From NCBI RefSeq assembly GCF_006352025.1, contig NZ_CP040936.1:3412001-3476000 (forward strand): 64,000 nucleotides of DNA, written 5' to 3'. This document shows positions 56,685-64,000 of this stretch, piece after piece. Under the pieces are notes generated by a model. It was not told where the DNA came from. It ran no database searches and saw only the letters and a list, made by a program, of their open reading frames with translations. Position 1 is the first letter of the stretch. Each line of letters opens with the position of its first letter. Position numbers and translations under genes: made by a program. Source of the stretch: Hymenobacter sp. DG01. Lineage in GTDB: Bacteria; Bacteroidota; Bacteroidia; Cytophagales; Hymenobacteraceae.

Positions 56685-57647
56685 ATGCCTACCCTCCCCC
56701 CCGCCCCGGCCGTCGCGGCTGCTCCCGAAGCCACGCCGGTAGCCGCACCCCCACCCCACCGCACGCCGGCCTCGGCCTGGGTGCTGCTGATTACGCTGGC
56801 TACTATCTGGGGCACCTCCTTTATCCTGATGAAGAAGGGCCTGGTAGTGTTTTCGGCTATGGAGCTGGGGGCTACGCGGGTGAGCGTGGCGGCGCTGCTG
56901 TTGCTGCCGTTTGCGCTTAAGCACCTGGGCAGGGTGGAGCGCAGCCGCTTCAAGTGGCTGGTGTTAAGCGGGGTAGTTGGCACCTTGGTTCCGGCCTTCC
57001 TGTTTGCCTACGCCGAAACCCGCATGGCCTCGGGCCTGGCCGGCGTGCTCAATGCCCTCACGGCCGTGTTTACCCTAGTAGTGGGCGCGGCTCTGTTCGG
57101 GCAGAAGCTGACAGGCCTGCGGGTGCTGGGCATCGGGCTGGGCCTGGCCGGCACGGTGGTGCTGATGCTACTGGGCGGCAGCGGCGGCGACGCTACTCCC
57201 TCGGGGGAAAGCAATGCTTGGTACGGCCTCTATATCGTGCTGGCAACGCTGGGCTACGGCGTAAGTGTGAACGTAATTAAGCACCACCTGCATGGCATTC
57301 CTTCGGTGGCGGTAACGGGCCTCTTGCTGCTGTTTATCGGCGGTCCGGCCTTGGCCTACCTGCTGCTGGGCACCGAGTTTTTACACAAGCTGGCAACCGT
57401 ACCCGGTGCCTGGAAAGCCTTCGGCTATATTGCTCTGCTGGCTACCATGAGCACGGCCGTAGCCATGGTGCTGTTCAACAAGCTCATCCAAAGCTCTACG
57501 GCCCTGTTTGCCGCTTCCAACACCTACCTGGTGCCCATTATGGCCCTGGGCTGGGGCCTGCTCGACGGGGAGCAGTTCAACCTCTGGCACCTGCTGGGCA
57601 TGCTGATTATTCTGGTCAGCGTAGCCATTATTCACCGGGCGAAGTAG
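56685..57647 (+). CDS. EamA/DMT-family transporter
   Basis: The protein has 320 aa. After a ~28-residue Pro/Ala leader come ten helices in two EamA repeats (ITLATIWGTSFILMKKGL begins the first; the second begins near WYGLYIVLATLGYGVSVN). These drug/metabolite transporters export amino acids or other small molecules; the substrate cannot be inferred. It is followed after 2 bp by the acetyltransferase gene, so the two are co-transcribed and probably coupled. Confidence 0.9.
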   Translation: MPTLPPAPAVAAAPEATPVAAPPPHRTPASAWVLLITLATIWGTSFILMKKGLVVFSAMELGATRVSVAALLLLPFALKHLGRVERSRFKWLVLSGVVGTLVPAFLFAYAETRMASGLAGVLNALTAVFTLVVGAALFGQKLTGLRVLGIGLGLAGTVVLMLLGGSGGDATPSGESNAWYGLYIVLATLGYGVSVNVIKHHLHGIPSVAVTGLLLLFIGGPALAYLLLGTEFLHKLATVPGAWKAFGYIALLATMSTAVAMVLFNKLIQSSTALFAASNTYLVPIMALGWGLLDGEQFNLWHLLGMLIILVSVAIIHRAK

Positions 57648-57649
57648 GT

Positions 57650-58144
57650 ATGATCCGACCTCTACACTTTCCAGCCGATGAGGCAGCTTATCAGGCCCTA
57701 CGCCAGGATGGGTTGCAGCGCCAGCCGGAGTGCTTCCGCGTTACCCCCACCGACGACGCCAACCGCCCGCAGCGCCTAGCCGGGTATCAGCCCAGTAATG
57801 AGCACATGATCTGGGGTGCTTTCAAGGATACGTCGCTGGTAGGCATCATCCGTTTTGAGCGGGAAAGCCTGCAAAAGCTACGTCATAAAGGCCAGATCCG
57901 GGGCCTGTATGTACGGGCAGAAGCGGCTGGATCTGGCCTGGGGCGACAATTACTACGCACAGCGGTAAGCTTCGCCCGCACCCTACCCGGGTTGGAGCAG
58001 GTGCAGCTTAGCGTGGTGGCTTCCAACGCCCGGGCCCGCGGACTGTACACGACTGAGGGTTTCGTACTTACCGGCCGCGAGCCACACGCCCTCAAGTGGG
58101 AAGGCCGCTATTTCGATGAGGAAACGATGGTGCTGTTTCTGTAG
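57650..58144 (+). CDS. GNAT-family N-acetyltransferase
   Basis: The protein has 164 aa. The acetyl-CoA-binding motif A reads IRGLYVRAEAAGSGLGRQLL, with the second half VQLSVVASNARARGLYTTEGF. The start is 2 bp after the EamA stop. A transporter-GNAT pair may modify and export a small molecule, but this is inference. It is convergent with the REP-associated transposase gene, 26 bp away. Confidence 0.88.
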   Translation: MIRPLHFPADEAAYQALRQDGLQRQPECFRVTPTDDANRPQRLAGYQPSNEHMIWGAFKDTSLVGIIRFERESLQKLRHKGQIRGLYVRAEAAGSGLGRQLLRTAVSFARTLPGLEQVQLSVVASNARARGLYTTEGFVLTGREPHALKWEGRYFDEETMVLFL

Positions 58145-58170: not shown

Positions 58171-58755
58171 TTACTTTATAACTTCATCAATCAAATACAC
58201 ATACGGCCAATCGTGAAAACGCTCCGGCAGGGTCAGGCGTTGCGGGTGGCTCAGCAGGTAGGAGTTGATGCGGGTTAGTTCGGCGGCGTCCTGTCCGGGT
58301 AGCTCGTGAAAGCCGGTTTGCCAGAAATCGGCTTCGGCAGGGAGCTGGCCGCGGAGCAGGCGCCGGGCCTGGGTGGCGGTACGCTGGTGCAGCAGCTCCA
58401 CGGTTTTTGGCAGGGAGAGGCCTACCCCCGCCGGCAGGTGCAGCACGACGTGCACATGGTTGGGCACTATCACGAAGCAAGGCACCCGCAGCCCCTGCTC
58501 TTCCAGCATCAGCAGCTCTCCGGCTACCATTTCGGCTAACTTTTCCTTCTCCAGATAGGCCGGGCCTACCGTGCGGACGTCCAGGAGGGCATCAAAGCCG
58601 GCGAAAAACTGCTTCTCAGCGCGGCGGTGCGCTTCTAGAGAATCAGCGGCTTGCTGGGCGGCTACGCGCTGAGTGTGCAGCTCCCGGCCGGCTTGCGCGG
58701 GGATGGAGCCAGCTAAGCGCAGGGTTAAAAAGATGGTTTCGCCGGGTGGGAGCAT
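58171..58755 (-). CDS. REP-associated tyrosine transposase (RAYT), Y1/HUH family
   Basis: The protein has 194 aa. The HUH motif is in FVIVPNHVHVVLHLP (~100-115), and the catalytic-Tyr helix reads INSYLLSHPQRL (~165-177), the RAYT version of the Tyr-Asn-Pro motif. An N-terminal strand ETIFLTLRLAGSIP is also typical. RAYTs are single-copy domesticated relatives of IS200/IS605 transposases that act on REP palindromes. ATG at 58755 lies 13 bp after the stop of the small gene upstream; a longer start would overlap that gene. No flanking transposon ends are visible. All expected motifs look intact. Confidence 0.88.
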   Translation of the reverse strand: MLPPGETIFLTLRLAGSIPAQAGRELHTQRVAAQQAADSLEAHRRAEKQFFAGFDALLDVRTVGPAYLEKEKLAEMVAGELLMLEEQGLRVPCFVIVPNHVHVVLHLPAGVGLSLPKTVELLHQRTATQARRLLRGQLPAEADFWQTGFHELPGQDAAELTRINSYLLSHPQRLTLPERFHDWPYVYLIDEVIK

Positions 58756-58768
58756 CAAATATGGCGAG

Positions 58769-59086
58769 TCAGTCACAATCAAAATTAGGGCTGAATAGGC
58801 GTTGTCCTTTAAGAGGGCCATATTCTTCAATAGATATTCTCGCGTCTTCCTGAGTTGCTTTAACTAACTCATCGAAACTCTCAAAACAGCGAAGCTTATC
58901 ATAGATAAACTTCTCAGCAGCCATATCCTCCTCCAATATTTCGTAAGAATACAGCTTGTAAACACCTTGCCATTTTTGCAATCCAACCACTAGCCAGCAT
59001 ACTTTACCCTCCCGCATATAGCAAAGACTTTTGCCAATCTGCTTTCCTGCTTCTATCCATTCTTTTATCTCTTGTAACCTCGCCAT
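58769..59086 (-). CDS. AT-rich hypothetical protein next to the helicase-nuclease gene
   Basis: The protein has 105 aa, soluble and rich in Glu/Lys/Asp: RLQEIKEWIEAGKQIGKSLCYM, VCWLVVGLQKWQGVYKLYSYEIL, FESFDELVKATQE. By eye its GC content is near 40%, against about 60% or more in most neighbours, which points to recent transfer. It begins 20 bp after the helicase-nuclease stop on the same strand, so it is probably in that operon. I do not recognise a family; a small accessory or immunity-type protein is possible but unproven. Confidence 0.65.
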   Translation of the reverse strand: MARLQEIKEWIEAGKQIGKSLCYMREGKVCWLVVGLQKWQGVYKLYSYEILEEDMAAEKFIYDKLRCFESFDELVKATQEDARISIEEYGPLKGQRLFSPNFDCD

Positions 59087-59106: not shown

Positions 59107-62100
59107 CTACACTGCTGGGCGCAGGATGCCGTTTACTTCCGCTACCTCTCCCCTTTCCAGCAACCCAGTCAATACAGGCTCTAGTTGTTGGCGCATTTCC
59201 TCTGACAGACGGCTGAAGCCGAGCAGGCGGACGGTGGGCAGAAACACGGCTTCGCGGGGCAGAGCGAAGCTTTGTTCGATAACAGTGCGCAGGGCGCGGG
59301 CCAGTTCTTCGGGGGCCACGAAGGTGAGCTTGCGGGAAATGGCGGGCAGCTGGCTTCGGTCGCGGAGGGGCGGTTGCTGCATGCTGAGGTCCCAGAGGAA
59401 GTCGCCGTGCTGGCGCAGGTGGCGCAGGTTGGCGGCTAGCAGCGCCGCGTCGCGGCCGGCTTTGCGCATGCGGGCGCCCACTTGGGTGGCTCCGCTAGCC
59501 TGAGCCAGGCGGCGCGTGGCTTCATCGAGGTGAATGGGGCTTTCGATGCGGACTATCTGCGTGAGCCAGTTGGCGAGTTGGCCCAGGCTATGCTGGTGCA
59601 GTTCGCGGTGGCCGACGGCGGCGGGCAGCTGCGCTACCTGGTAGGGTTCAGTCAGAGCCTGGTCGGTGGCCGACAACTCTTCGCGCTCAATACCAGCGGT
59701 TTCCGGCACTACTTCGGGTTCTTCCGGCTCGTCGGGGTCGTCTTGGGCGGCGAGGCGGCGGGCTTCTTCGATGGCTTGCACCGCGCGCTCGGTTTCGCGC
59801 TGGGGGTCCCGGAACCAGTCGGTGCTCCAGATGCGGTGCAGGCGCCACCCCACGGCTTCGAGCACCTGCTGCCGCAGCCGGTCCCGGTCGCGGGCCGAGC
59901 GGGCCGAGTGGTACATGGCCCCATCGCACTCAATGCCCAGCAGGTAGCGGCCGGGCTGATCGGGGTCCACTACCGCCAAATCAATGTAAAAGCCCTGGCT
60001 GCCAATTTGCGGCCGCACTTGGTAGCCGCGGGCCGTGAGGGTGCGGTACACAGCCTCCTCAAATGGTGAATCCAGGCTACGGCCGGTTTCCTCGTTTTGG
60101 TTCAAGCGGCCGTGCTGGGCAAAGTTGAGGAAGGTTTTGAGCGCCGCCACACCCTTGGCGCGGGTACGGTTCAGGTCCAGATCATCGGCGGTGAGGTTGG
60201 TAAAAACTTCGCAGCGCTGCTTGGCCCTGGTGATGAGCACGTTCAGGCGCCGTTCGCCCCCCTCGCCATTCAGCGGCCCGAAGCTCATAGTGAGGTAGCC
60301 CTCCTTGGTGCGGCCGTAGCCCACGCTGATCAGAATCACGTCGCGCTCATCGCCTTGCACGTTTTCGAGGTTCTTGATGAAGAAGGGCTCGTGGGGGTGA
60401 CGGTTGAAAAACGACTCGGTTTCGGGGTGCTGCCGGCGCAGCCTTTCTAACGCATCCTGAATGGCCTGGCGCTGGGCCGTGCTGAAGGCTACTACCCCCA
60501 ACGTGAGGCGCGGGGTGGTACGGGCATGGTGCAGCACGGCTTCGGCCACGGCCTGAGCTTCCAGCGGATTGGTGCGGGTAGCGCCCCGCTCGTAGTGGGT
60601 TTCAGGCAGATGATGGTACACCAGCCCCAGCTGCCCCTGCCCGCCGGGACTGGGGAAAATCACCAGCTTGTCTTCGTAAAACAAGTGGTTGGAGGCCGCA
60701 ATCAGGCTTTGGTGCAGACTGCGGTAGTGCCAGCGCAATATCCGCTCAGGCATCTGGCGGGCCTTGCACAGCTCTAGAATACTCTGGATATCGGCCGTTA
60801 CGTTTTCCTCATCGGCCTCTTCCCCGCTGCCGGTCAGGGAGTCGAAGAAGGAGGTGGGCGGCAGCTGCTTGGAGTCGCCGACTACCACCAGCTGCCGGCC
60901 CCGCGCAATGGCGCCCAGCGCATCCACAGGCCTCACCTGCGAGGCCTCATCGAACACCACTAAATCGAACTCCACTGCCCCCGGCGGCAGGTAGCTGGCC
61001 ACCGACAGCGGCGACATCATGAACACCGGCTTGATGGCCTGTACCGCCCGCCCGGCCTGCTGCATGAGCTTGCGCAGGGGCAGGTGGCGGGTCTTTTTAG
61101 CGAATTCATTGCGCAAGAGCAGCATCTGGCCGCCGGCCTGCGGGTGCGGCAGGCCCTCGTGGTGCTGGCGCAAGGCCCGGATGCGGTTGTGGTAAAGAGA
61201 GTCCTGGTCGGCTTGGCGGAAGCGAGCGGCTATTTCCTCGTGACTGGCCCGCTCGAACTGCCGTAGGGCCGGGTGCTGCTCGTAGGCCTGTCGCTGCAGA
61301 AATTCCAGCCAGGTCTGACGCACTGCCGCTGCCAGCAGGCGCGAAGCGTGGGGCCAGCCTTCGGCTAGCAGCAGGAGTTCCGGCAGCTGCTCCTGTTGCG
61401 CAATGGCCGCTACGTTGTTCCACTCCGTGGCCAGACGCAGGGCCGGCAAGTCGGCGGCCCAGGCGGCCAAGGTGCCTTGTTGCACATCGAAGGGCTGAAA
61501 CTGCAGCCGTCCGGCCGGTCCGAAGCGACGCGCTTCGTTGAACTGTAGGGCATCGACTACGGCTTGCACGGCAGCGCGGTGCTGGGCCAGGGCGGTTTCC
61601 AGGTTGTTTAAGCGCGTTGCTAGGTCGTGCTGCTGGTGCGCCTCACCCCCCGCCCCCCCCTCCGAAAAGGGAGAGGGTGAGCCGGACGATTGGTCATTTT
61701 GCCAATTGGCTACGGCTGCCTGGGTAAGGTAGGCCAGCAGGGTGGCCGGCAACTCCCCGCGCGCAATCCGTTGGTGGGTTAGGGTCAGATACTCCTGGAT
61801 TTTCAGCAGCGTGGGCCAGTCAGACCGCTCTCCTTGCCAGCTGGCGCCGAATAACTGCTGGCCTAGGCCACTTCCTTCGGCTACCTTTTTGGCGTGACGG
61901 GCCGCCTCGTGAATGGCATCCACTACCGCAATTAGCCCGGCAGACTCTTTAGGCAAAGGTCCGCGCCAGAAGCTTTGCAGGCGCTTCCGGGCCCGGCGGT
62001 AGTCGCCGTTGAGGAGGTTCCACCACTTGTCACCAGCGGCAAGCAGGGTTGCCCGCTCCGCGAGGAACTGCTGGTCCCAAGCTTCGGGCAGAAGGGTGGC

Positions 62101-64000
62101 CTCGTGCTGCTGGCGCAGGGTGGTGTAGGCCAGTCCGGCCTTGAGTATTTCCTGGATGCGCCCTGCCTGCTGGTGCCAGGCCGCGTCGGCTACGGCGGCT
62201 CCTGACAGTGGCGGCGCTAGTTGGGCGTGGCGGGCGGCGGGCAGGAGCTGCTCGGCGGCCGTGCGCTCCGTGGGCATGGGCAGCCCCAGCAACTGGCCTA
62301 GCACACGGCCCGCTTCCTGTAAGTCCGTTACGGCGGCTTGGGCTTCGGCTAACCGGGTAGACAGGGCTGCTTGGTCAGCAGGCAGTAATACGGTCAACTC
62401 GCTGCCCCAAAATAGAAGGTCTTTGGGTGCCCCGATTTTCTGCAGCGTGGCCTGCAGGCGGGTGGCCTGGGCTTCGGCCTGGGCGGCATCGGCATCGGTC
62501 CAGGCAGCCAGGCCGGCAAAGGCAATGCGCGGTAGTTCAGTAGCACTACGCTTTTCGGCCAGGCGCAGCAGCTCGCCGGCCACTTGCTGGGCCGTGCGGC
62601 GGCTGCGGCCGATGGGGGCATTCACAGCCAGAGCATAGTCGTTGAGGGCCTGACGATAGCGCGGCAGCTGGGCCATCTGGTCCTCCACATTGGCTGCGGC
62701 GGCCGGTCGGCCGAGATTGAGAGTGGCTTTCAGCTCATCATGGAGGGCTTTTTTATTGGCCTTGTGGCTGTGCAGCTCCAGACAGGCCGCGCCCAAGCCT
62801 AACGCATCGAGGCGGCGCTTTACTACTTCCAAAGCGGCCATCTTCTCGGCCACGAACAGCACCTTCTTGCCCGCCCCAATAGCTTCAGCCAGCAGGTTAG
62901 CAATGGTCTGCGACTTACCGGTGCCGGGCGGGCCCTGCACCACTAGGTTGCGGCCCTCCTGCACGGCCAGTAGGGCCAGCAGCTGGGAGCTGTCGGCATC
63001 CAGTACTTGGTGCAGTTCGTGGGCGGTGCTTTCGGTATCGAGGAAAGCCGTGTCGCTCACCGTGGGCAGCGCGTCCTGGAAGCCGGTTTCCGCGCCTAGC
63101 AGCGCCTCAATGGCCGGATGATCGAGCAGTGTAGTGCCGCTGGGCCAGGTGGCGGGGTCCAGGTCGCGGTAGAGCAGGAATTTCCCGAAGGAAAAGAAGC
63201 CCAGCGCAATCTGGTCGGGCGCAACCTGCCAGCGGGGCAGGCCTTGCACGGCTTCACCCACGGACGCGAGGTAGGCGGCTACCCCGGTTTCTTCGTCCCA
63301 CTCCGGCAGGCTCAGCCCGAAACTGGCCTTCAGCTTGGCTTGCAAGGACAGGTTGGCCTCTACCTCAGCGCCGGTGTAGCGCAGTTTGAACCGCTCGGCG
63401 GCGGTGCCGCGCTCCAGCAGCACGGGTACCAGCACCAGGGGCGCCTGCCGGAGCTCTTCGCTACTAGCGGCTTCATACCAAGTGAGCATGCCCAGAGCCA
63501 GATACAGGATGTTCACGCCCTGCTCTTCCAGGCTGGTGCGGGCGGCGTAGTAAGTGTTCAGCAGCCGACTTTCCAGCTTTGCCAGTGGCTCGGCCGTCTG
63601 CAGCTTGTTGTCGGTGAGCAGGACCTGCTTCTGCTCGGCGGTAAGCTCTGGCTGCGGAGTCATTTCCTCAGCAGTTGCCGTTTCCTCCGGGGTTTGCTCA
63701 GGCTGAGGGGGTAGGGAAGCCAATGGCTCCGATAGGGTTTCGGCTCCTGCGGGGGGTAGGGCGCTTATGGACTCGGGGATGCTTCCGGGTTTCTGCCTGG
63801 TCGGCTCGGGAGCAGCCTGGAAGTACATCGTTTTGCCCTGGCTTACTAACACCTCGTACACCGCGGCGGCTTCTTCCTGCACCACGGCCACGCCCTGGGC
63901 TTTGGAAGGCCGAAAGTTGAGCAGCGGATTTCGCAGACCCAGGTCAAGCAGTTCCTGGCGGGAAGCTTCGAGGCGGGCTGCGAAGGAAGGTATGCTTTGC
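59107..64000 (-). CDS. DUF4011-helicase-nuclease-DUF3320 protein (Hhe-like), 5' end outside the window
   Basis: About 1630 residues are visible, and the frame stays open through base 64000, so the true start lies beyond. The visible N-terminus has ELLDLGLRNPLLNFR, the DUF4011 start. Superfamily I helicase motifs follow: Walker A GPPGTGKSQTIANLL (near 62905-62936), Walker B VVFDEASQV (near 60950), and QGDERDVILISVGYGR and LNVLITRAKQR at the helicase end. A Vsr/MTES_1575-like nuclease domain (~59790-60090) has FEEAVYRTL, YIDLAVVD, GIECDG and HRIWSTDWFRDP. A DUF3320 domain ends the protein. This plan matches the anti-phage protein I recall as Hhe. Active-site residues look intact. Confidence 0.85.
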   Translation of the reverse strand, partial: QSIPSFAARLEASRQELLDLGLRNPLLNFRPSKAQGVAVVQEEAAAVYEVLVSQGKTMYFQAAPEPTRQKPGSIPESISALPPAGAETLSEPLASLPPQPEQTPEETATAEEMTPQPELTAEQKQVLLTDNKLQTAEPLAKLESRLLNTYYAARTSLEEQGVNILYLALGMLTWYEAASSEELRQAPLVLVPVLLERGTAAERFKLRYTGAEVEANLSLQAKLKASFGLSLPEWDEETGVAAYLASVGEAVQGLPRWQVAPDQIALGFFSFGKFLLYRDLDPATWPSGTTLLDHPAIEALLGAETGFQDALPTVSDTAFLDTESTAHELHQVLDADSSQLLALLAVQEGRNLVVQGPPGTGKSQTIANLLAEAIGAGKKVLFVAEKMAALEVVKRRLDALGLGAACLELHSHKANKKALHDELKATLNLGRPAAAANVEDQMAQLPRYRQALNDYALAVNAPIGRSRRTAQQVAGELLRLAEKRSATELPRIAFAGLAAWTDADAAQAEAQATRLQATLQKIGAPKDLLFWGSELTVLLPADQAALSTRLAEAQAAVTDLQEAGRVLGQLLGLPMPTERTAAEQLLPAARHAQLAPPLSGAAVADAAWHQQAGRIQEILKAGLAYTTLRQQHEATLLPEAWDQQFLAERATLLAAGDKWWNLLNGDYRRARKRLQSFWRGPLPKESAGLIAVVDAIHEAARHAKKVAEGSGLGQQLFGASWQGERSDWPTLLKIQEYLTLTHQRIARGELPATLLAYLTQAAVANWQNDQSSGSPSPFSEGGAGGEAHQQHDLATRLNNLETALAQHRAAVQAVVDALQFNEARRFGPAGRLQFQPFDVQQGTLAAWAADLPALRLATEWNNVAAIAQQEQLPELLLLAEGWPHASRLLAAAVRQTWLEFLQRQAYEQHPALRQFERASHEEIAARFRQADQDSLYHNRIRALRQHHEGLPHPQAGGQMLLLRNEFAKKTRHLPLRKLMQQAGRAVQAIKPVFMMSPLSVASYLPPGAVEFDLVVFDEASQVRPVDALGAIARGRQLVVVGDSKQLPPTSFFDSLTGSGEEADEENVTADIQSILELCKARQMPERILRWHYRSLHQSLIAASNHLFYEDKLVIFPSPGGQGQLGLVYHHLPETHYERGATRTNPLEAQAVAEAVLHHARTTPRLTLGVVAFSTAQRQAIQDALERLRRQHPETESFFNRHPHEPFFIKNLENVQGDERDVILISVGYGRTKEGYLTMSFGPLNGEGGERRLNVLITRAKQRCEVFTNLTADDLDLNRTRAKGVAALKTFLNFAQHGRLNQNEETGRSLDSPFEEAVYRTLTARGYQVRPQIGSQGFYIDLAVVDPDQPGRYLLGIECDGAMYHSARSARDRDRLRQQVLEAVGWRLHRIWSTDWFRDPQRETERAVQAIEEARRLAAQDDPDEPEEPEVVPETAGIEREELSATDQALTEPYQVAQLPAAVGHRELHQHSLGQLANWLTQIVRIESPIHLDEATRRLAQASGATQVGARMRKAGRDAALLAANLRHLRQHGDFLWDLSMQQPPLRDRSQLPAISRKLTFVAPEELARALRTVIEQSFALPREAVFLPTVRLLGFSRLSEEMRQQLEPVLTGLLERGEVAEVNGILRPAV
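61641..61682. repeat. Dispersed-repeat-like segment translated in frame inside the helicase gene
   Basis: A C-run/G-run segment with 7-bp inverted ends (CTCACCC at 61642-61648, GGGTGAG at 61675-61681) and CCGAAAAGGGAGAGGG inside. On the coding strand it reads SPSPFSEGGAGGEA, a sequence typical of a CTCACCCCC...AAAGGGAGAGG type repeat often found between genes. It lies in a poorly conserved linker and keeps the frame. Confidence 0.65.

Follow-up and report, generated by a model that had tools for sequence, protein, structure and literature searches.

A PDC-S37-family helicase-nuclease as a candidate antiviral occupant of a conserved chromosomal slot in Hymenobacter

The large gene and its predicted domains

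The window analysed here is a 64,000-nucleotide stretch of the Hymenobacter sp. DG01 genome (G000:C1:3412001-3476000), the end of which is occupied by a large minus-strand gene (59107..63999) for a DUF4011-containing helicase-nuclease, assigned from profile matches and the genome sequence to the PDC-S37 type (ProA-like, short form). A preliminary description of the window had taken this open reading frame (ORF), which stays open through the window edge, for a candidate anti-phage protein of the Hhe type. The frame is real: the genome sequence closes it 13 codons beyond the window, with an ATG start 38 bases past base 64000, giving a full gene at G000:C1:3471107-3476038 (L007:107-5038, minus strand) that encodes 1643 amino acids (aa).

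DUF4011, a helicase, a Vsr/MTES_1575-like nuclease and DUF3320, which the preliminary description had recognized in one chain, were all recovered above the Pfam cut-offs, and the two domains on which it had made its proposal depend, DUF4011 and the nuclease, score 142.9 and 135.4 bits (cut-offs 22.2 and 38.2). All features of the protein lie on the minus strand, and Pfam residues are those of the visible part. DUF4011 is encoded at 63331..63954 (residues 16-223). The superfamily 1 (SF1) helicase was matched by AAA_11 (59.2 bits, cut-off 27) and AAA_12 (48.8 bits, cut-off 27) over residues 343-398 and 1010-1268; Pfam and alignment together place its Walker A motif, GPPGTGKSQ, at 62908..62934 (residues 369-377 of the full protein) and motifs II to VI (FDEASQ, GDSKQLPP, WHYRS, QGDERD and LNVLITRA) at 60211..60966. 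The MTES_1575 or Vsr-like PD-(D/E)XK nuclease follows at 59770..60063 (residues 1313-1410), and DUF3320 covers residues 1466-1513 (53.7 bits, cut-off 25).

AlphaFold2 modelling predicts that some 550 residues ahead of motif II (61045..62712) form a helical arm that interrupts the helicase, and that the C-terminus has two winged helices, the first at 59389..59586, overlapping DUF3320, and the second at 59116..59313. The winged helices were called from the HHHEE pattern of the model and from a published description of a similar protein (PMC3710099), not from a fold match. In three carriers of the gene (L059, L063 and L068, from genomes G012, G001 and G019), the open frames reach 1861-1953 aa, and the extra stretch gives a second match, at 38-49%, to the part of the helical arm around residues 526-870.

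Among the aligned relatives, the motor motifs are conserved, with Lys375 of Walker A kept in 56/56 and D1030-E1031 of motif II in 55/55; in 70 distant relatives, the Walker A count follows from their having been picked for containing GPPGTGKS. In the nuclease, both aspartates are nearly invariant (Asp1353 in 54/55, Asp1372 in 55/55), whereas Glu1370 is kept in 48 of 55 and has been lost repeatedly, with 9 changes on the protein tree, so that the EC-D residues, once suggested for mutation, would be a poor target. Upf1, Sen1 and IGHMBP2 are the nearest solved motors, and Dna2 is also found among the relatives of the helicase. Judged by its sequence, the protein is a full Upf1/Dna2-like SF1 motor joined to a putative Vsr-like nuclease with its acidic residues.

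The composition of the large gene is native-looking (GC 0.644 and, at third codon positions, GC3 0.756, both within the range of its neighbours; window GC 0.612), and a foreign origin by composition is unsupported. The permease gene upstream is separated from it by 152 bases with a hairpin-like stretch, seen by eye, which suggests that the large gene may form its own transcription unit.

Family assignment

The best matches of the large protein are antiphage models of PADLOC and NCBIfam, which bears out its description as a candidate anti-phage protein. PADLOC PDC-S37 (PDLC05009; PDC stands for phage defence candidate) scores 2083.9 bits over a single end-to-end stretch (residues 7-1627 against positions 7-1545 of 1550); no structural difference was seen along this full-length match, and the window copy adds a loop derived from a repetitive extragenic palindrome (REP) at residues ~777-802.

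The Hhe label held for the architecture and failed for membership. Hhe reportedly stems from a 2020 defence-island screen, and its plan, which follows the family name as DUF4011, SF1 helicase and Vsr-like nuclease, is present in one chain and in the same order by Pfam. PADLOC Hhe matches at 827.4 bits, and Hhe proteins of Klebsiella plasmids match with 46% identity in 2 pieces that lie between residues 143 and 1430 and together span 52% of the query. However, the Hhe alignment is broken into three stretches, the PDC-S37 score is 2.5 times higher, and the protein reaches 1075.9 of the 2000 bits demanded by the NCBIfam Hhe equivalog (NF042953), a shortfall on which Hhe proper was rejected; strict Hhe identity is very improbable.

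A second curated model, NCBIfam NF058533 ("anti-phage protein ProA"), shares DUF4011, helicase, nuclease and DUF3320 with the large protein and matches it at 1569.7 bits, barely above its cut-off of 1500. The match begins at position 357 of 1903, and the N-terminus of about 350 residues (profile 1-356) is missing here. Of 392 genomes of the phylum, 45 contain a match to this model at E 1e-150 and 21 exceed the cut-off. Scores of 1971-2224 bits were obtained for the top 14 rows, of which 13 start at position 1 and one at 58, and the long-form protein L174 reaches 2320.9 bits from position 1; eight rows above the cut-off are short forms, the window's protein included. In a tree of 89 proteins (410 helicase columns, midpoint root only), 24 long proteins are set apart by one state change (fork SH-aLRT 87), and the window's protein falls inside a 53-row short group (SH-aLRT 96), outside the long ProA group. 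This suggests that a single curated model merges two distinct groups, the long ProA and the short PDC-S37 proteins. Based on the profile scores and the tree position, we file the protein as PDC-S37, Hhe-like in plan and, as far as sequence comparison can tell, neither Hhe nor, strictly, ProA.

Glu1370 is lacking in 21 of the 24 long proteins versus 7 of 46 short ones (one being an alignment gap), and 39 of 46 short proteins keep it. The loss in the long proteins hints at a change of effector, but on a single branch; the counts are suggestive of a coupling between gain of the long N-terminus and loss of the nuclease Glu, but it is not claimed, since it involves one tree change and independent pairs were uninformative. 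Pfam gave no match in the long N-terminus of the two long proteins scanned. By eye, this region has a transglutaminase-like Cys-His pattern, matching the plan given by PMC3710099.

The architecture itself was published in 2013 (PMC3710099). In that paper, the MTES_1575 protein of Microbacterium testaceum combines an SF-I helicase, a Vsr restriction endonuclease and two winged helix-turn-helix (wHTH) domains; DUF3320 overlaps the wHTH and is itself described as one. The window's protein has the same helicase and Vsr nuclease and two winged helices (here predicted), whereas the transglutaminase and HEPN domains that the same paper gives for MTES_1575 were not detected in it by Pfam.

Relatives are scattered over a broad range of phyla that includes Bacteroidota, Pseudomonadota and, through one metagenome-assembled genome, Asgard archaea (80 kept of at least 361 confirmed). 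In addition, a 40% identical relative lies on one viral contig and a 73% identical copy on one Hymenobacter plasmid. Literature searches found no paper on ProA or PDC-S37 as a named defence protein. The family of the large gene is a predicted defence family.

A conserved slot with variable content

Across 115 Hymenobacter genomes, the large gene was found in 55 and is absent from 60. Forty-nine carriers have it at the same site, 43 of them between an amino-acid permease gene and a gene for a drug/metabolite transporter (DMT) on one contig (with a broken frame in G014) and 6 next to a single flank where the contig breaks off; the remaining 6 hold it elsewhere. The flanks are nearly universal, the upstream permease being kept in 114/115 genomes and the downstream transporter (56685..57647, plus strand, in the window) in 115/115, and the interval between them, where both lie on one contig, ranges from 180 bases to more than 120 kb. 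In the related genus g6, the slot was occupied in 8/8 genomes examined, by PDC-S37 in 4 and by a sister protein in 4; by parsimony, the slot is older than the split of Hymenobacter and g6. Another genus of the family, g2, has a 46-49% identical protein in 7/7 genomes, with no slot flank within the 12.6-20 kb read around it. This is therefore a conserved chromosomal slot with variable content between core flanks, arranged in both Hymenobacter and g6 as permease, occupant, often a gene resembling a REP-associated Y1 transposase (RAYT), and transporter.

A random accessory island is rejected by this synteny, and the term accessory patch, used for the locus in the preliminary description, is misleading for a fixed site common to most carriers and g6. 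The absence of the gene from 60 of the 115 genomes nevertheless rejects a gene that is core in all relatives, the finding that the description had set against itself. No published account of the slot was found in the part of the Hymenobacter-defence literature results examined, none of which names Hymenobacter.

The sister helicase-nuclease was found in 6 Hymenobacter and 4 g6 genomes, all ten in the slot. Over the aligned length it shares 25-27% identity with the window's protein, and the six copies measured have 1519-1557 aa, with the motifs Walker A, DEAS and ECDG all preserved. Pfam found MTES_1575 and detected neither DUF4011 nor DUF3320 in the two of ten slot members scanned, and in one scanned with NCBIfam the best models were far under cut-off (ProA 239.4 of 1500). 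In the 123 genomes of Hymenobacter and g6, PDC-S37 is present in 59 and the sister in 10, and the two never occur together; the chance of zero overlap is 0.001, although a single shared slot partly forces this exclusivity.

A tree of the flank ends was built from 198 columns for 105 of the 115 loci, and 21 of its 101 inner branches have good support. On it, PDC-S37 presence requires 16 changes, whereas shuffled labels need 34.7 on average (0/300 as low), and PDC-S37 and sister require at least 5 switches, near the value for random labels (mean 5.8), which indicates that the sister is scattered over the tree. Comparison of G076 and G098, which carry the sister, with G077, which carries PDC-S37, revealed that both flanks (about 300 bases each) stay 92-95% identical to the very edge of the occupant; this is a clean swap. 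Such interchange of exclusive occupants may suggest that PDC-S37 and a sister without DUF4011 and winged helices, as far as detected, replace each other by flank recombination and serve one function through different sensors, a tentative proposal that we hold at slightly under even odds. If it is true, the slot amounts to a natural experiment singling out the contribution of DUF4011 and the winged helices. It provides close relatives that differ in occupant (G077 versus G076 and G098) on a similar background, and comparing their phage sensitivity would test whether these domains set specificity.

The survey of other contents covered 58 further intervals, of which 47 belong to genomes lacking both proteins; seven slots of such genomes (at a contig break or longer than 19.4 kb) and the G019 slot were left out. 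SspB, SspC, SspD and a SoFic gene lie in the slots of G039 and G078. Beside the Ssp genes of G078, L134:6375-8132 has a weak MzaB match (56.8 bits). Many other slots contain, by eye, non-defence ORFs (peptidases, sensor kinases, exporters), RAYT-like transposases or almost nothing, as in the near-empty slot of G010 (180 bases); some of these ORFs are likely spurious, as simple longest-ORF calling was used at high GC. A PADLOC scan of 62 of the 126 ORFs of at least 240 aa (E 1e-20) gave, among 25 of the 26 matching families, Ssp and Fic at 2 loci and mad3 for 1 protein. PDC-S37 was found at the site in 49, the sister in 6 and Ssp in 2 of 115 genomes; the slot appears to have a preferred occupant type and not to be a rich island.

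Taken together, we consider the large gene, with a probability of about 0.6, to be a one-gene antiviral system, a helicase-nuclease of the PDC-S37 family residing in an immune slot with a fixed place on the chromosome, acting by a mechanism of the kind proposed below. The pattern of inheritance bears on this reading and on a second one, in which the protein is a Dna2-like genome-maintenance helicase-nuclease with an ancestral locus that was lost in part of the genus. Over 45 of the 53 slot carriers, PDC-S37 distances correlate with those of the permease (r 0.45, 0/2000 permutations) almost as strongly as permease and transporter distances correlate mutually (0.47); the correlation with the transporter is 0.34 (1/2000). 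Some pairs are too divergent for their flanks, such as G056-G002 (gene distance 0.275, permease 0.023). The combination indicates mostly descent in place, plus replacements. A genome-maintenance role could account for the mostly flank-like inheritance, the locus common to Hymenobacter and g6, and Dna2 and Upf1 among the relatives. It would also fit a core branch of the superfamily, a relative of ~1310-1430 aa (mostly 1310-1360) present in 16/16 and 49/49 genomes of two further genera of the family (g4 and g5). A few of the open frames of this branch (in G124-G188; L179:7642-11634 is one example of the branch) have a stop inside the match, and in the single member scanned DUF4011 is partial and the C-terminus resembles a nuclease, under the cut-off. 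Nevertheless, the large gene is missing from 60 of 115 genomes and diverges more quickly than the genes on either side (median distance 0.275 versus 0.193 for the permease and 0.216 for the transporter). It has also been exchanged precisely with a non-orthologous protein between near-identical flanks, has a plasmid-borne relative, shares its site with Ssp and has antiphage models as its best matches. A housekeeping function is thus unlikely.

Several points weigh against the antiviral interpretation. A fixed site with a flank-like signal also fits a partly lost housekeeping gene, and the core branch of the superfamily, perhaps ancestral and probably housekeeping, is present in every g4 and g5 genome, a caution that helicases of this kind may have housekeeping roles. 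Known defence genes are otherwise few in the slot, and no published activity was found for the family. Glu1370 is missing in 7/55 aligned proteins. No fold match was obtained for the winged helices themselves, with VIA-align rows spanning only C-terminal model residues 72-446, and Foldseek with residues 14-1130 gave weak helicase and coiled-coil matches, none at E <0.001, DUF4011 not being searched alone. As for the sister, 42% identical relatives lie on Sphingobium plasmids and three are annotated as DUF3320-containing, so that the sister's relatives may carry DUF3320; together with the 2/10 Pfam scans, this weakens the clean picture of the sister family.

Candidate mechanism, precedents and neighbouring genes

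In the antiviral interpretation, DUF4011, the arm and the winged helices would recognize an abnormal nucleic-acid structure of the invader, such as free ends, forks or gapped DNA, a target proposed because no modification gene is present among the immediate neighbours, which are only the permease, a small ORF, the RAYT-like gene and an acetyltransferase gene. ATP-driven 5'-3' translocation, the polarity of Upf1-like enzymes, would then hand strands to the nuclease, which might cut invader DNA or, in a self-sacrificing mode, host DNA. Slot occupants would be exchanged by recombination between the conserved flanks. On the other hand, the motor might act on RNA or stalled transcription, with the nuclease damaging host nucleic acid after infection and killing the cell. 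RNA-bound structures are found among the nearest solved motors, Upf1, Sen1 and IGHMBP2, and type III-B CoCoNuT systems, predicted to target RNA, fuse a Vsr-like nuclease to a UPF1-like helicase according to PMC11090510. An RNA-directed or self-killing effector nevertheless seems quite improbable.

The same paper describes for III-B a direct fusion of the nuclease to the helicase, CnuH, and a coiled-coil helical insertion in CnuH, both like the window's protein. CoCoNuTs are, however, McrBC-type (Type IV restriction) systems, III-B is given there without wHTH domains (PMC11090510), and the neighbours of the window gene differ. Another precedent is the core defence hotspot cDHS1 of Pseudomonas aeruginosa (PMC10250203), which contains at least 31 systems and has a DUF4011 gene as its right flank in every isolate. 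Both sites are conserved, with core flanks, no single mobile element and a large DUF4011 gene; in cDHS1 this gene is the constant flank (PMC10250203), whereas in the Hymenobacter slot it is the variable occupant and few other systems were found. The Hymenobacter slot suggests that a defence gene can hold a fixed chromosomal address for longer than the age of a genus while being swapped, and not only reside in mobile islands.

Between the transporter and the large gene, the window contains three further genes. A GNAT acetyltransferase gene (57650..58144, plus strand) is also present in the slot of 3 g6 genomes. The transposase of the preliminary description is a RAYT-like Y1 protein (58171..58755, minus strand; start probably at ATG 58755, to which it was moved) that scores under the curated cut-offs (Y1_Tnp 17.9 of 23, REP_Tyr_transpos 47.8 of 80) and is the sole copy detected in the genome (E 0.001). 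A homologue was found at 66 of the 113 loci L039-L151 of Hymenobacter, some of which belong to the same genome, making it a common slot neighbour. The gene of foreign composition noted earlier is a 105-aa AT-rich ORF (58769..59086, minus strand), 20 bases after the large gene, with a GC of 0.406 against 0.612 for the window; the native-looking large gene does not share this feature. The ORF has no Pfam or PADLOC match, no homologue in the same 113 loci (tblastn, E 1e-8), and 50% identical ORFs at the equivalent place in two g6 loci (L170 and L172). It is a possible accessory or regulator.

The loop at residues ~777-802 is encoded by an in-frame REP-like palindrome (loop SGSPSPFSEGGAGGE; 61633..61710, minus strand), identified from the genome sequence and the alignment, and lies in the helical arm, where the corresponding alignment columns are filled in 2-45% of 56 orthologues. 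The palindrome core has 17 genome sites within 3 mismatches, versus 1 for the reversed control, and two of them form an inverted pair at C1:2772700-2772807. The RAYT-like transposase is possibly the partner of these REP elements. Similar but altered loops are found in some near relatives of the large protein.
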